Assembly (NCBI GenBank): GCA_021851785.1
Contig: JAJZBV010000001.1
Span: forward strand, 1-64,000
From: Pseudomonadota bacterium
Lineage (GTDB): Bacteria > Pseudomonadota > Alphaproteobacteria > Acetobacterales > Acetobacteraceae
DNA: 64,000 nt
Direction: 5' to 3'
Shown here: one piece after another, positions 1 through 4,425 of the stretch
Layout: the number at the start of each line of letters is the position of its first letter
How positions within the stretch are numbered: the first letter of the stretch is position 1
Position numbers and translations under genes: made by a program
Notes under the pieces: model-generated
Told to the model about the DNA's origin: nothing
Seen by the model: the letters and a program-made list of their open reading frames with translations, nothing else
Databases searched by the model: none

Positions 1-106
1 AAGCCGAGACCCGCGCCGCCAGCGCATCCAATCGCGCCATCAGCACGCCGATCAGCGTGTCCTTCTCGGACGAGGAAAGGCAGGAGATGTCGGGCGGCAG
101 AGTCAT
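1..106 (-). CDS. IS66-family transposase (TnpC-like), N-terminal fragment cut by window edge
   Basis: Read leftward from the ATG at 104-106, this gives about 35 residues beginning MTLPPDISCLSSSEKD and continuing LIGVLMARLDALAARVSA into the window edge. The short acidic start followed by a leucine-rich heptad-like helix matches the N-terminus of IS66-type TnpC transposases, which open with a coiled-coil before the zinc-finger and DDE domains; those lie outside the window. No TnpA or TnpB frame is visible upstream (to the right), so this is either a TnpC-only IS66 subtype or a decayed copy. The assignment rests on N-terminal similarity only. Confidence 0.55.
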   Translation of the reverse strand, partial: MTLPPDISCLSSSEKDTLIGVLMARLDALAARVSA

Positions 107-207
107 GGAAAGGTTGACTCACATCCAGCCCTCCAGCGCAACAGAAATCTACATCTTGCAGCCCAGCCGCCTCACCCAACCCCAGCCGTCGCACGCTCAG
201 CACGCCA

Positions 208-225
208 GCCCGGGTGAGCAATTAC
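208..225. repeat. Candidate IS66-type terminal inverted repeat (right end of the IS)
   Basis: On the minus strand this reads GTAATTGCTCACCCGGGC. It starts with GTAA, as IS66 ends usually do, and agrees at 9 of the first 11 positions with the termini of the miniature element at 1448-1589. It lies about 100 bp upstream of the transposase start, a plausible place for an IS end. The other end is outside the window, so no target duplication can be checked. The rest of 107-392 shows no supported gene. Confidence 0.35.
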
Positions 226-392
226 GATCACGCGGCCGAGTACGCTATGGGCCACGCATTGGAGATGCGCGGCCGGGGAGATTTGAACGGCGAAATTGTT
301 TGGCTTAAAGTGTTTGATAGTATACGAGCGCTACAATACAAAAATTTTGAGCATAAAACCCTGCATTGAGCCCACAGCCATAGGTCGCAGAA

Positions 393-1316
393 TTAAATCT
401 CCGCTCGGTGTCTTGATTTATTTGCGCGACGCACGAGCGCCCACAGCCCAAGCACGCCAAACCCGACTAAAAGGCCTGACGGTGGTTCAGGCACGGCGCT
501 TCCCGCCTGGATGGTTTCCGTTACCGACGATTGGAGACTAAGTGTATATGTTACTCCATTATCTAACGTAGGAGTGACGATGGAGTAGATCCCGCTGCTA
601 GAATACGGCGAGCTACCTGTGCCATTCGAAGAACTAACCGCCACCTGCCCGTTGCTTCCGAATGGAAATGCGGAGAATGAAGAGCCATTACTGCCGCTGA
701 GAACCAAGGCGTTTAGGGCGCTTGCAGACGCCGACTCACCTATAAAGCCAGAGGATGCGCCTGCCGTAGTGGCCACAAGCTCGGTTGTTTCTTGGAAAAT
801 TATATCAAGAGGATAGCCAGTGCCGGAAAATGTAAAATTAATGTAGGCAACATTCGCTGCTGAAGAACTCCCTAATGCATCCCCATAAGCTTCCGCAACA
901 TTCGAAACAGAGCTACCCCCGACAACTCCAGGCCCGGGCGCAACCAGCGCCCCGATCGCCGCGTCTGCACGAGCACCAATCATGTTGCCTGGACCAACGG
1001 CGGTGAAGCTTGCTGGAGGCGTCGAAGATGAGGGGCCTGAAAACGCTTGCGAAATGCTTAGGGCCGAATTAATTGCCCCACTGCTTTGGTATCCGGAAAT
1101 TCCATACCCGTCATATTGAGCGCTATCGCTGATAGCTTCCTGGCTTCCAGAATTCAAAGGAATGGACACCAATTGGCCTGTGTCGGAATTTTCGACCCGA
1201 AGATTGGTGATCTGATCCGAGGCGAAGGCATAAGGATAGATCGCTGTCGCATGCGCCGCGATGGGGACAGCCATCGCTAACATGCTGATCGTCGCAGCAA
1301 AATAGCGCCTTCGCAT
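393..1316 (-). CDS. PEP-CTERM sorting domain-containing secreted protein
   Basis: This 307-residue protein has a signal peptide (about residues 1-24, ending near AAHATA), a Ser/Gly/Ala-rich body with no recognised enzyme domain, and a C-terminal tripartite tail: VPEP at about residue 275, a hydrophobic helix (GLLVGFGVLGLWALV) and a basic end (RRANKSRHR). That tail is the PEP-CTERM signal recognised by exosortases, so the protein should be exported, cleaved and attached to the cell surface or extracellular polysaccharide. No exosortase gene is in the window. Base composition is more AT-rich than most of the window and the gene sits beside an IS66 fragment and a FeeM-like gene, which suggests an acquired island. 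The body gives no clue to a specific role. Confidence 0.85.
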   Translation of the reverse strand: MRRRYFAATISMLAMAVPIAAHATAIYPYAFASDQITNLRVENSDTGQLVSIPLNSGSQEAISDSAQYDGYGISGYQSSGAINSALSISQAFSGPSSSTPPASFTAVGPGNMIGARADAAIGALVAPGPGVVGGSSVSNVAEAYGDALGSSSAANVAYINFTFSGTGYPLDIIFQETTELVATTAGASSGFIGESASASALNALVLSGSNGSSFSAFPFGSNGQVAVSSSNGTGSSPYSSSGIYSIVTPTLDNGVTYTLSLQSSVTETIQAGSAVPEPPSGLLVGFGVLGLWALVRRANKSRHRAEI

Positions 1317-1447
1317 GACTCGGCCTCCCGATTACGAGCCGCATTATCGCTCAAGGGTCGGGCGCAGGCAACTAGAAAATTAACACAATACGATTACCCG
1401 CCGCCCGCTAGCCAACGGTTAATTATTTTGCCGGAACTTTAAAATTG

Positions 1448-1589
1448 GTAACTGCCCAGGTACCCCCTCTGGCGTGCCCAGGTACCCCTCAGCGCCGTGG
1501 GCTGTAGGCGAATTAGGGGGCGGCGAAGGCAATTTTTCGGCTCAAGATCGTCTGTAGGCCGTCTTTCGTCGAGCTACCTGGGCAGTTAC
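1448..1589. mobile_element. 142-bp IS66-like miniature inverted-repeat element with 8-bp target duplication
   Basis: Perfect 15-bp terminal inverted repeats, GTAACTGCCCAGGTA at 1448-1462 and its complement at 1575-1589, enclose 112 bp without an ORF. They are flanked by an 8-bp direct repeat TAAAATTG (1440-1447 and 1590-1597). GTAA ends and 8-bp duplications are hallmarks of the IS66 family. An internal copy of the terminal motif (TGCCCAGGTACCCC) recurs at about 1475. There is no coding capacity, so movement would need a transposase supplied in trans. The right end supplies part of the stop codon of the neighbouring FeeM-like gene. Confidence 0.8.
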
Positions 1590-2317
1590 TAAAATTGACA
1601 AATCTTGCGAAATTCAACCTCATGTCGCTCTGCAAGAGACTGAAAATTATCGGCGCTAGATGCGAGCAAAGAAAGAACTACGTTGTCTTTTTCATATAAT
1701 TTGCCACCCTCAAGAATTTTAAATCCAAAGCGGGTATAAAAATTCACATGTTGCAATCGGACAGAAATTATAACTATATCTGCGCCTAGATTGAAAATTG
1801 TGTCTTTTATAAATCCATAAATGGACAGAAGAACAGGAATTCGATCATGTTTTTCTGATAGACTAGCAAGTTTTGATATTTCAATTATTTTCAAGTTATT
1901 CTGGGGAAGGCAAAGTTTTTTTAATATGCTTTTGGTAGTGTAATTAAATTGGTTGGCGCTCGGAATTGCATCGTAGATATTATCCATAACTGAAGAATCA
2001 AAAAAGCACAGTCTTATTGTTGCAGTTGGAACTCCGTATTTGAATAACACCGCTGTTCTTGTAGAGGGCGCATTGTCAAATTCATCCTCCCAAGACTGTG
2101 TGTCTTTTTCTAAAATATATCCCCGCGCCATATACGCTCTATAACGTATACGATACGCCTCCGCTCTGAGCGTATCTGTAGTCGCAAATCGAACTGCAAT
2201 GTCATTAAATCGGAATTTCTGAAAATTAGATATATTTAATAATGAATTTGGCGCACTGACCCAAGCCAAATGGCTTTTAACAAGCGAGCTATTCACTAAT
2301 CCGATATTTGATAACAT
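1589..2317 (-). CDS. FeeM-like long-chain N-acyl amino acid synthase (GNAT-fold acyltransferase)
   Basis: This 242-residue protein has the layout of FeeM / exosortase-associated acyltransferases: an N-terminal RIRYRAYMARGYI motif (about residues 75-87), a central acidic substrate segment, an IEISKLASL strand and a C-terminal VNFYTRFGFKIL motif typical of the acyl-CoA/acyl-ACP N-acyltransferase fold. Family members join a fatty acyl group from an acyl carrier protein to an amino acid or amine; the substrate here is unknown. The gene is strongly AT-rich, unlike most of the window. Six bases separate it from an upstream 56-codon ORF. Its TAG stop straddles the junction with the miniature element; removing the element and one target copy restores TAA at the same codon, so the insertion left the protein intact. 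Confidence 0.7.
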   Translation of the reverse strand: MLSNIGLVNSSLVKSHLAWVSAPNSLLNISNFQKFRFNDIAVRFATTDTLRAEAYRIRYRAYMARGYILEKDTQSWEDEFDNAPSTRTAVLFKYGVPTATIRLCFFDSSVMDNIYDAIPSANQFNYTTKSILKKLCLPQNNLKIIEISKLASLSEKHDRIPVLLSIYGFIKDTIFNLGADIVIISVRLQHVNFYTRFGFKILEGGKLYEKDNVVLSLLASSADNFQSLAERHEVEFRKICQF

Positions 2318-2323
2318 AGCTTA

Positions 2324-2494
2324 TTATAATAAAACGTTTGTTTCATTTTTCTCAGAATAAAGAATATCTTTTATGCATTTTTCGACATAAGTTCTTTTTG
2401 TAGCTTCATTTAAATCGGCAAAAGTATTCCGACATTCCCATAGCAGGTGCAAAACAATTGCGAATGTCTCTTCGTTGCGAGAATCTGATTGCAT
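2324..2494 (-). CDS. Small 56-residue protein upstream of the FeeM-like gene, unknown function
   Basis: An ATG at 2492-2494 opens 56 codons ending in tandem TAA stops (from 2326), only 6 bp before the FeeM-like start. The product is charged and looks helical: it starts MQSDSRNEETFAIVLHLLWE, has a cysteine in LLWEC and another in EKC, and ends ETNVLL. Its AT-rich codon choice matches the FeeM-like gene and not the GC-rich flank. A G-rich stretch directly precedes the ATG, and a GTG lies two codons upstream. It lacks the DSL serine motif of an acyl carrier protein. I do not recognise the family. Composition and tight spacing support a real gene co-transcribed with the synthase. Confidence 0.5.
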   Translation of the reverse strand: MQSDSRNEETFAIVLHLLWECRNTFADLNEATKRTYVEKCIKDILYSEKNETNVLL

Positions 2495-2604
2495 TTCCAC
2501 CCCCGCCGTTCAACCTTTGGTTGTTATATCACTGTTGCAAACGAAAAACAACGACACAAGGGGAGAATCCGGAAAAATTCAATGTTTTGCATGAAATTAC
2601 CGCC

Positions 2605-4425
2605 TCATTCGCCGGAGAGGTCGCGCCGGCGCCGGTCGAGCTCCTCGCTATAGCGGCGGAGCGCGTATTGTTCGGTGAGGAGGCCGATGACGCGGAAGTT
2701 CTCGGCGCTGTCCACCACCGCCAGCGCATCGCTTTCGGCCTGCTCGAAGGCGCTGATCGCGTCCTTGACGCTCATTTGCGGCAGCAGCACCCGGTCGGCG
2801 TGGTGGAGGATATCGGCGAGCTTGGTCGTGCCGTCCACGGCATGGGCCTCGGCGACCAGGACGATCCCGGCATAGCGTCCCGCCTGATCGACGGTGATCA
2901 CCCTTTGTTCGGAGCCGAGCGGAAAATCCCGGCGGAAATTGCCGAGCGGCATATCGACGCGAATGGTTCGCACCTCGCGGCGCATCATCCGCCCGATGGT
3001 GAGATTGCGCATCCAGCCGACATCGACGGCGCTGCGGATCGCCTCGCCACGGAGGTGAAAGCGCCAGGTGGCGAAGGAATAGCCGAAGGTGCGGCGCACG
3101 GTGAGCGCCGAGATCACCGAGGCGGCGAGCACGGCGATGGTGAGCGGCAGGCTGCCCGTGCTTTCCAACGCGAGGAAGGCCATGGTCAGCGGTCCGCCGA
3201 CGATCGCGGTCGCGAGCCCGCTCATGCCGACCACGGCGCAGACCACGGCGGGCAGCATGGTCTTCACGGTCAGCGCCGCGAGGATTGCGGCGAACAGCTT
3301 GCCGAGCATGGCGCCGAGGAAGAGCGAAGCGAAGAACAGGCCGCCGCGAAAGCCCGAGCCGATCGAGATCGCCGAGGCGGCAGCCTTGAGCAGCACCAGC
3401 AGGGCGAGAAACGGCAGCGAATAGGGGGCGTTGATGCCGAGATGCAGCGCCGCGTGACCCGAAGAGAGCACCTGCGGCGTCACCAGGGCCATGATCCCGA
3501 CCGCGAGCCCGCCAATCGCCGGGCGCAGCCAGGCCGGCACGCCGCTTTGGCGGAACACCTCCTCGGTCAGTGTCACCCCGCGCATGATGGCGACCCCGAA
3601 CAGCGCGCACACCATGCCGAGCGCCAGCACCGGGATATAGTCGAAAGGCGGGATGGTGCTGGGCAGGATGAGTTCGAAACCGCCGGGATCGCCGAGCAGC
3701 CAGCGATCGACGGCGATCGCCGAGATCGAGGCGACCACCACCGGCGCCAGCGTCATCAGCGAATAGGTGCCGATCACCAACTCGAACGCATAGAACGCGC
3801 CGGTGAGCGGGGCATTGAACGCCGCCCCGATGGCGCCGGCGGCGCCGCAGCCGACGAGCAGGCGAAGATCATTGCGCCGCACCCTAAAACTCCGCCCGAG
3901 ACGCGAGCCGAGGGCGGCGCCGATCTGGCTGTAGCCGGCTTCCAGCCCGACCGAGGCGCCGACGCCGTTGGAGAAAATGGTTTGCAGCGTGACGATGAGA
4001 CTGTCGTTCAGCGACATGCGCCCGCCATAGAGGGCATTGGCCTCGATCGGGTCGACCGCGCGGTGGGGCCAGAAACGCGCGACCGCGAGGCCGGCGAGGC
4101 CGAGCGCGAGGCCGCCAATGCTCGGCACCAAGAGCGAGCGGCCACGATCGAGCTTCGCCATGCCGCTCAATCGCTCATGTCCGTAGATCAGAAACAGGGC
4201 GTGATGCATCTCCAGCGTCGCGATATTCATCAGAACGACACAGAGCCCGGCGCCGCAGCCGACGAGCGCGGCCAGCGCCACCAGCCAGATTTCGTCGGCG
4301 CGCACCAGGGCGCGCAGCGTCTGCGGCACGTGCAGGACGATTTCGCCGAGCGGCCGCCGCGGCCGGAGCGGCAGCGGCCGGTCACGCCGCGCCGCCGCCC
4401 CCGAGAGGGAAGGAAAAACGCTCAT
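2605..4425 (-). CDS. ClC-family chloride channel/antiporter with C-terminal CBS domains
   Basis: This 606-residue membrane protein has a cytoplasmic N-terminus, about 10-12 hydrophobic segments (residues 50-440) and a soluble C-terminal part (about 460-600) consistent with a CBS pair. ClC signatures are visible: a GASVGLEAGY segment at the GxEGP filter position, with its glutamate kept as expected for the gating/proton glutamate; NAPLTGAFYAFE; and GSGFRGGLFFASLFLGAMLG, the GxFxP-type region. Such proteins move chloride or related anions across the inner membrane, and CBS domains usually add nucleotide control. The gene is alone on its strand, with a long spacer upstream. Whether it is a channel or an H+/Cl- exchanger cannot be decided by eye. 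Confidence 0.88.
   Translation of the reverse strand: MSVFPSLSGAAARRDRPLPLRPRRPLGEIVLHVPQTLRALVRADEIWLVALAALVGCGAGLCVVLMNIATLEMHHALFLIYGHERLSGMAKLDRGRSLLVPSIGGLALGLAGLAVARFWPHRAVDPIEANALYGGRMSLNDSLIVTLQTIFSNGVGASVGLEAGYSQIGAALGSRLGRSFRVRRNDLRLLVGCGAAGAIGAAFNAPLTGAFYAFELVIGTYSLMTLAPVVVASISAIAVDRWLLGDPGGFELILPSTIPPFDYIPVLALGMVCALFGVAIMRGVTLTEEVFRQSGVPAWLRPAIGGLAVGIMALVTPQVLSSGHAALHLGINAPYSLPFLALLVLLKAAASAISIGSGFRGGLFFASLFLGAMLGKLFAAILAALTVKTMLPAVVCAVVGMSGLATAIVGGPLTMAFLALESTGSLPLTIAVLAASVISALTVRRTFGYSFATWRFHLRGEAIRSAVDVGWMRNLTIGRMMRREVRTIRVDMPLGNFRRDFPLGSEQRVITVDQAGRYAGIVLVAEAHAVDGTTKLADILHHADRVLLPQMSVKDAISAFEQAESDALAVVDSAENFRVIGLLTEQYALRRYSEELDRRRRDLSGE

Follow-up and report, generated by a model that had tools for sequence, protein, structure and literature searches.

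An N-acyl amino acid synthase gene of the FeeM class paired with an EDSAP-1-like PEP-CTERM gene in an AT-rich island of Acetobacteraceae

INTRODUCTION

A link between N-acyl amino acid synthases and PEP-CTERM surface proteins is already in print, going back to Craig 2011 according to papers that cite it (PMC4897644, PMC11072679, PMC8776678, PMC4886054, and PMC11631085). When such an exosortase-linked synthase was disrupted in Methylomonas LW13 (PMC11072679), a distinct polysaccharide band and growth in a gradient system were lost, and complementation restored both. For Aquincola, PMC9850573 reports that the PEP-CTERM protein PepA moved extracellular polymeric substances (EPS) from soluble to cell-bound. 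The role of the lipid and the attachment of the PEP-CTERM protein are left unexplained in those sections of the literature on exosortase-linked synthases that were available. Here, we describe a gene pair, encoding a FeeM-type N-acyl amino acid synthase and a PEP-CTERM protein akin to the EDSAP-1 family, in a 64-kb window at the start of contig C35 of an Acetobacteraceae genome (G000; 3.16 Mb, 66 contigs), together with the corresponding site in congeners G001, G002, G003, G004, and G005 (six genus genomes including G000).

The window pair resembles several described systems without coinciding with any of them. Like the TIGR03694 (exosort_acyl) system, it places a FeeM-class N-acyl synthase beside a PEP-CTERM gene in an exosortase-bearing genome; in contrast to that system, its enzyme reaches 17 bits against a model cut-off of 111.95 and is not nested in the TIGR03694 group. 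The FeeM gene sits in a biosynthetic cluster. FeeM and the window synthase belong to a common Pfam family (PF21926), and FeeM is the best fold match, whereas identity is about 19% and the window enzyme adjoins a surface-protein gene. The EDSAP-1 family (NF041538) has above-cut-off homologs in the Acetobacteraceae genomes G026, G060, and G1131 as well as in a genome from another class (G868), whereas the window's own protein falls outside the model. The NasY homologs of Acidiphilium are likewise N-acyl amino acid synthases of Acetobacteraceae; PMC8776678 reports them from only three Acidiphilium type strains of those it compared, whereas PF21926 was matched above its cut-off in 38 of the 200 family genomes sampled here.

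RESULTS AND DISCUSSION

A synthase gene and a PEP-CTERM gene as neighbors

Open reading frames (ORFs) for the PEP-CTERM protein and the FeeM-type enzyme are real neighbors, as the preliminary description of the window had proposed. They are embedded in the following features:

1-225, reverse strand: end of an IS66-type insertion, its terminal repeat reaching position 225, at the start of the contig
226-369, forward strand: s70 remnant (3' part, ORF of about 70 amino acids), with homologous ORFs in G002, G005, G001, and G004
393-1316, reverse strand: PEP-CTERM surface protein, EDSAP-1-like, 307 amino acids, called from tail models, homologs, and substitution rates
1450-1587, no strand assigned: insertion of 138 bp, bounded by perfect inverted repeats of 13 bp
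1589-2317, reverse strand: FeeM-type N-acyl amino acid synthase (predicted), 242 amino acids, called from PF21926, fold match, and conserved residues
2324-2494, reverse strand: s57, an ORF of 56 amino acids conserved in the genus, ending 6 bases before the synthase start
2605-4425, reverse strand: ClcB-like chloride channel (PF00654), the right flank, outside the module

The s70 remnant, the 138-bp insertion, and s57 had gone unmentioned in the preliminary description. The AT-rich character of this stretch was likewise borne out. The 1-kb bins at 1001-2000 (46%) and 2001-3000 (49%) are the poorest in GC across the window, and every bin beyond 3000 lies at 57-73%. By gene, GC content is 36% for the synthase, 32% for s57, and 53.5% for the PEP-CTERM gene versus 68% for ClcB; at third codon positions (GC3), it is 0.26-0.50 for the island genes of the window versus 0.87 for ClcB. 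Promoter and terminator scans gave counts at chance level.

The product of 1589-2317 scored 71.7 bits with PF21926 (E 8e-20; cut-off, 27), and FeeM headed both fold comparisons, in agreement with the earlier FeeM-like call. An AlphaFold2 (AF2) model built from 3 sequences (predicted local distance difference test [pLDDT], 65.6; residues 1-37 under 50) returned FeeM 2G0B at ranks 1-6 in Foldseek (E 6.8e-9) and first in VIA (Z 14.0, root-mean-square deviation 3.7, 168 aligned residues, 19% identity); a sequence search for solved relatives gave only two ribosomal chance matches. R58, Y62, D78, D81, and R102 were kept in all 40 synthases compared, drawn from three lineages, and E146 in 39 of them, residues that we take to be catalytic. 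The gene is under purifying selection, with a ratio of nonsynonymous to synonymous substitution rates (dN/dS) of 0.25 versus the G002 ortholog, and is the one FeeM-family gene in G000. Sequence and model together indicate that it probably encodes an enzyme joining fatty acids to amino acids. The G002 copy (L018, 8232-8930) ends about ten codons before that of the window, at one stop within the matched stretch; it seems that either the final residues can be spared or this end of the gene is in flux.

The tail of the 393-1316 product carries VPEP, a hydrophobic stretch, and a basic end, the signature by which it had been described as a PEP-CTERM protein. That call stood, with a TIGR02595 score above cut-off (17.4 bits versus 16); the PF07589 score (18.9) was slightly under its cut-off of 20.7. 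The gene is also under purifying selection (dN/dS of 0.22 versus G002). We call the protein EDSAP-1-like, and not EDSAP-1, because it gave no match to NF041538 up to E 1 and its G005 ortholog scored 86 bits, below the cut-off of 100. Homologs scored 109.6-118 bits in G060, G1131, and G026 and 90.7 bits in G040. Our literature search found no paper naming EDSAP-1.

A FeeM-class lineage outside the TIGR03694 group

The preliminary description had also assigned the synthase to the exosortase-associated type. That assignment did not hold: the TIGR03694 score (17.0 bits) is far below cut-off, and in our tree the enzyme belongs to a separate FeeM-class lineage. The tree comprised 40 rows, namely, 15 in a group that we call A, 3 of the window type (window, G002, and G005), and 22 generic FeeM enzymes (group B). 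All 15 A rows matched TIGR03694 at E ≤ 2.4e-32, about cut-off or better, and group A was split from the rest in 100% of 200 bootstrap trees. The window-type synthases fell on the B side of that split, a result that held with either long branch removed, and the window synthase scored 143 bits with a B profile versus 18.6 with an A profile. Membership in TIGR03694 is therefore ruled out by score and by tree, and nesting of the window type inside that group is excluded because the group forms one side of a branch in all bootstraps. Nesting of the window type within generic group B is not established, because the best tree joining the window type and the TIGR03694 group against the rest was not rejected (p-AU of 0.267).

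A class-wide search with the window-type profile gave matches at E ≤ 1e-6 in 2/385 genomes, G000 and G061, with G002 and G005 outside the genomes listed; the G061 match is a generic FeeM enzyme (65.5 bits).

Recurrent pairing of EDSAP-like proteins with synthases

A profile of the window PEP-CTERM family was matched at E ≤ 1e-6 in 8 of 397 family genomes, and a synthase gene adjoins in six of them: of the window type in G000, G002, and G005 and of the TIGR03694 type in G026 (142 bits), G040 (135 bits), and G060 (among the 15 A rows). In the remaining two, G1131 and G094, the gene abuts a contig end, and no synthase was found in the stretch fetched on its other side. Among 398 genomes sampled from the phylum, NF041538 was above cut-off in a single one, G868, of another class, and there a TIGR03694 synthase (269 bits) adjoins the EDSAP-1 gene. 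With the genus counted once, all five independent EDSAP-like cases that can be assessed are paired, versus 3/28 other PEP-CTERM loci taken from the NF041538 search (p 2.4e-4, for a test framed after the pattern was seen). No ThiF gene was found at the nine EDSAP-like loci in fetched stretches of 3.5 to 20 kb.

The two-gene association is real: the linkage is of a known kind, the synthase lies outside the known subfamily, and the PEP-CTERM partner is recurrent, repeatedly paired with two synthase lineages. Both the EDSAP-1/synthase pairing and the non-TIGR03694 synthase in such a pair look new; in the available parts of the literature on PEP-CTERM proteins, exosortases, N-acyl amino acids, TIGR03694, and floc formation, we found no description of the pairing. 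Because the same surface-protein family adjoins such enzymes in other bacteria, the genomic pattern suggests that the EDSAP-like protein and the synthase work together on the cell surface.

Exosortase and PEP-CTERM background

A genome profile search located a single exosortase in G000 (C55:31667-32407; E 4.9e-58), which is exosortase A (XrtA; TIGR03109, 284 bits; cut-off, 208). At this XrtA/EPS locus, 9 of 10 scanned proteins were above XrtA/PEP-CTERM model cut-offs (sugar transferase, export, chain-length, outer membrane protein, ATPase, deacetylase, FemAB-like, glycosyltransferase, and exosortase), with the tyrosine kinase below. PEP-CTERM tails above the TIGR02595 cut-off numbered 24, about one per 132 kb, for a short model that was also above cut-off in 2/14 control genomes. 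The proposed search for an exosortase and further PEP-CTERM genes in the genome thus gave both, and a genome lacking exosortase, named beforehand as the finding that would speak against the idea, is ruled out by exosortase A on C55. Given this distant exosortase and the 24 tails, the C55 locus could have the pair as a satellite, as had been conjectured. No synthase neighbor was found at the 12 other G000 PEP-CTERM loci examined (12 of 24 places).

Synthase neighborhoods and the TIGR03694 cassette

We surveyed the neighborhoods of 43 synthase loci: 15 of group A, 3 of the window type, and 25 others, the last including L067, L068, and L069, which are fragments or weak matches outside the tree. 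A PEP-CTERM gene was in view at 10/15 A loci, 3/3 window-type loci, and 0/25 other loci (A versus the 25 others, p 3.5e-6, with related genomes included). The A loci are not 15 independent cases, because L063/L064, L054/L059, L057/L061/L062, and L065/L066 share a genus or genome, and the tail at L062 is weak (17.0 bits), so that a stricter threshold leaves 9 of the 10. All TIGR03694-type counts are lower bounds, because the PF21926 search misses some members, such as that of G026, which was found by other searches. Exosortase was present in 12/13 A genomes, 7/18 B genomes, and 75/200 genomes overall, in a survey that covered the genus by G000 to G003, with G004, G005, and G1131 outside it. Restricting the comparison to exosortase-bearing genomes left PEP-CTERM genes at 0/10 B loci versus 9/14 A loci (p 0.002).

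Within the A loci, we observed a recurrent cassette in which a TIGR03694 synthase, a PEP-CTERM protein, and a ThiF-nitroreductase fusion lie within about 5 kb (loci L051, L052, L054, L056, L059, and L061-L064; genomes G001, G003, G038, G071, G174, G062, G185, G087, and G150). The ThiF-nitroreductase gene was found at 9/15 A loci, and the fusion was PRK14851/PRK08223-like in the two scanned. A PepA-like profile, built from six of the loci concerned, was matched at 7/15 A loci, making the partner PepA-like in 7/9 cassettes; the curated PepA model NF033554 was above cut-off in two of three A-locus PEP-CTERM proteins scanned. Cassette and window pair follow one logic, an N-acyl synthase with a PEP-CTERM neighbor, and the cassette of G001 (synthase TIGR03694 score, 186 bits) even occupies the same ClcB site; they differ in PEP-CTERM family, in synthase lineage, and in the additional ThiF-type enzyme. 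ThiF-type genes are also listed inside a PEP-CTERM/EPS cluster in a locus table of PMC3684757. In other classes, A-type synthases adjoin other PEP-CTERM proteins at L146, L147, and L148 (G699, G732, and G927), with a ThiF-type gene also nearby in G927 (L148).

A proposed surface-chemistry module

We favor, with moderate confidence, a reading of the pair as a surface-chemistry module composed of a FeeM-type synthase and an exosortase-processed EDSAP-1-like PEP-CTERM protein. The enzyme would take a fatty acyl group from acyl-carrier protein and attach it to an amino acid. After export, the EDSAP-1-like protein would be cleaved at the PEP motif by the one exosortase of the genome, whose gene lies at a distance, and would stay in the envelope or in the EPS layer. 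Its small-molecule partner would be the N-acyl amino acid, synthesized inside the cell and then passed to that outer layer, in which surface protein and lipid might jointly alter adhesion or aggregation. In this scheme, the enzymatic reaction with its substrates, cleavage of the protein by XrtA, and a shared role of the two products are predicted from genes and models. In its favor stand the family and fold matches of the enzyme, the recurrent pairing, the exosortase and PEP-CTERM background, purifying selection on both genes, and the effects reported for relatives in Methylomonas LW13 and Aquincola.

Several of our results weigh against this reading. The window protein and its G002 ortholog both fail to match NF041538, so that the EDSAP link runs via the G005 ortholog and a three-ortholog profile, and a model of the EDSAP-like protein was unusable (pLDDT of 34.6) and yielded no fold. 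The non-TIGR03694 pairing amounts to one evolutionary case, because the three window-type cases share genus and site. Five of the 15 TIGR03694-type loci had no PEP-CTERM gene in view, and among the 10 that did, one partner was EDSAP-like and seven were PepA-like; TIGR03694-type synthases are therefore not tied to EDSAP-like partners. In addition, no exosortase was found in G003 (99% complete), a genome that has the synthase, PepA-like, and ThiF genes (L052, G003:C36).

A more speculative extension, which we hold only tentatively, is that EDSAP-1-like proteins are dedicated surface partners of N-acyl amino acids (carriers, presenters, or lipidated products) that recruit whichever synthase lineage is available. 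The protein would be the fixed half of an exchangeable pair, combined here with a non-TIGR03694 FeeM-class enzyme. If so, exosortase display and lipo-amino-acid synthesis would be one system, in which the synthase supplies the ligand or anchor of the surface protein. Because members of two synthase lineages adjoin the EDSAP-like family wherever pairing can be assessed, what had been a correlation across genomes becomes a hypothesis about two genes, testable in a single strain.

History of the island within the genus

ClcB is present in all six genus genomes, and what lies beside it varies. Gene order in G002 runs from an exosortase-dependent surface protein through s70, the PEP-CTERM gene, the synthase, and s57 to ClcB; G005 shows the same order, as does G000 across contigs C32 and C35, and the G000 and G002 blocks share about 90% DNA identity. 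In G004, s70 and s57 adjoin each other at the ClcB site with no pair between them, G001 has s70 and s57 there with an A-type cassette beyond s70, and G003 has none of the island genes at ClcB. Synonymous divergence (dS) between G000 and G002 is similar in the island (0.20-0.39) and its flanks (0.23-0.32). In the comparison of G002 with G005, dS is saturated for four of the five island genes and 1.76 for the synthase, versus 0.42-0.63 for four flanking genes.

Because the island diverges so much more than its flanks between G002 and G005 and because G004 is without the pair, these comparisons indicate that the island was probably exchanged within the genus. A credible alternative, to which we give a lesser though appreciable chance, is that the island stayed in place, evolving fast, and was never exchanged. 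G002 and G005 do share gene order, s57 and s70 keep the same site at only 37-58% identity between congeners (75% for G000-G002), and the low GC3 of the island genes may inflate synonymous change. The contrast with the flanks in G002 versus G005 argues for exchange, though dS is alike in G000 and G002, and so does the adjacency of s70 and s57 without the pair in G004. The preliminary description had treated the island as acquired and had named conserved synteny in close relatives as counterevidence; that synteny exists in G002, and it counts against a recent or IS66-borne arrival only, so that the acquisition claim survives as mobility within the genus.

Fast-evolving s70 lies beside or near fast-evolving s57 at the ClcB site in 5/6 genus genomes (s70 at window 226-369; L018, 6926-7135; L019, 6192-6410; L051, 12065-12370; and L102, 6178-6390), and the scanned s70 and s57 ORFs had no Pfam match. 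In the search of 397 family genomes, s57 was found in five, all of this genus, and none beyond it; the alignment of the five has an invariant LWECRN, and dN/dS is 0.49 versus G002. The second surface protein of the island (L220, 2309-3070, reverse strand; L018, 5980-6705, reverse strand) scored 31.8 bits with NF050191 in G002 (cut-off, 29), and the L018 copy has an Npun_F0296 family domain; its PEP tail is absent from the TIGR02595 list of its own genome.

Alternative readings of the pair

Chance neighborhood, with a FeeM-type synthase merely lying beside one of 24 PEP-CTERM genes in an AT-rich hotspot, seems unlikely to us. It would fit the grouping of the window synthase with or near FeeM-class enzymes at whose 25 loci no PEP-CTERM gene was in view, the variability of the ClcB-adjacent site within the genus, and the fact that a window-type synthase beside a PEP-CTERM gene is one independent case. 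It does not sit well with a rare EDSAP-like family that is paired in 5/5 independent cases with both sides visible or with the ClcB site of G001, which holds a TIGR03694, PepA-like, and ThiF cassette.

We judge it similarly improbable that the synthase makes a lipid anchor for exosortase substrates, namely an N-acyl amino acid bearing a free amine on its side chain, to which XrtA would join the cut PEP-CTERM protein. The physical pairing of synthases with exosortase substrates is in keeping with such an anchor, as is the presence of exosortase in 12/13 TIGR03694-type genomes versus 63/187 of the remaining sample (p 4e-5). One exosortase, however, would have to serve about 24 substrates in G000, and the synthase adjoins one kind only. 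Most of the 75 exosortase genomes also have no assigned PEP-CTERM-linked synthase type, a weak argument because the PF21926 search misses TIGR03694 members such as that of G026.

That the 1589-2317 enzyme is an acyl-homoserine lactone (AHL) synthase is a poorer prospect still. The FeeM and LuxI families have a common fold and core residues, and AHL synthases came next in the VIA list, close behind FeeM (TofI at Z 12.7, LasI and RpaI at 12.4); FeeM nonetheless tops both fold comparisons, PF21926 was matched at 71.7 bits, and no NCBIfam AHL-synthase model was listed up to E 1.

Insertions in the island

Recent acquisition carried by IS66, to which the AT-richness and the IS66-type sequence at the contig start might point, is highly improbable and was set aside, since G002 shares the gene order, with DNA about 90% identical, but has no insertion sequence (IS) there and since the IS lies inside the island, flanked by an 8-bp duplication, with the rest of the island on C32. 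The duplicated target is GATCACGC (window 226-233 and L220 3312-3319), the termini read GTAATT.CTCACCC on both sides, and the far end gave a 76-78% match to annotated IS66 family transposases. The insertion splits s70, whose 5' part is on C32 (L220), and lies between C35 and the left half of the island, which ends C32. The supposed flanking by IS66 material thus reduces to one side, at the contig start, with ClcB on the right, and a composite element, which would have copies on both sides, is not what we found: there is one insertion, inside the island. We regard it as later than the island and incidental to the pair. A frame at about 1-107 is presumably the N-terminal part of a transposase-like protein; a Pfam scan of the 35-amino-acid fragment at 2-106 gave no match.

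A search of the genome for the 138-bp element at 1450-1587 found one copy, and a mobile family is therefore not demonstrated. The inverted repeats that bound it, perfect over 13 bp, read AACTGCCCAGGTA. The element follows closely on the stop codon of the synthase gene and is missing at the same place in G002.

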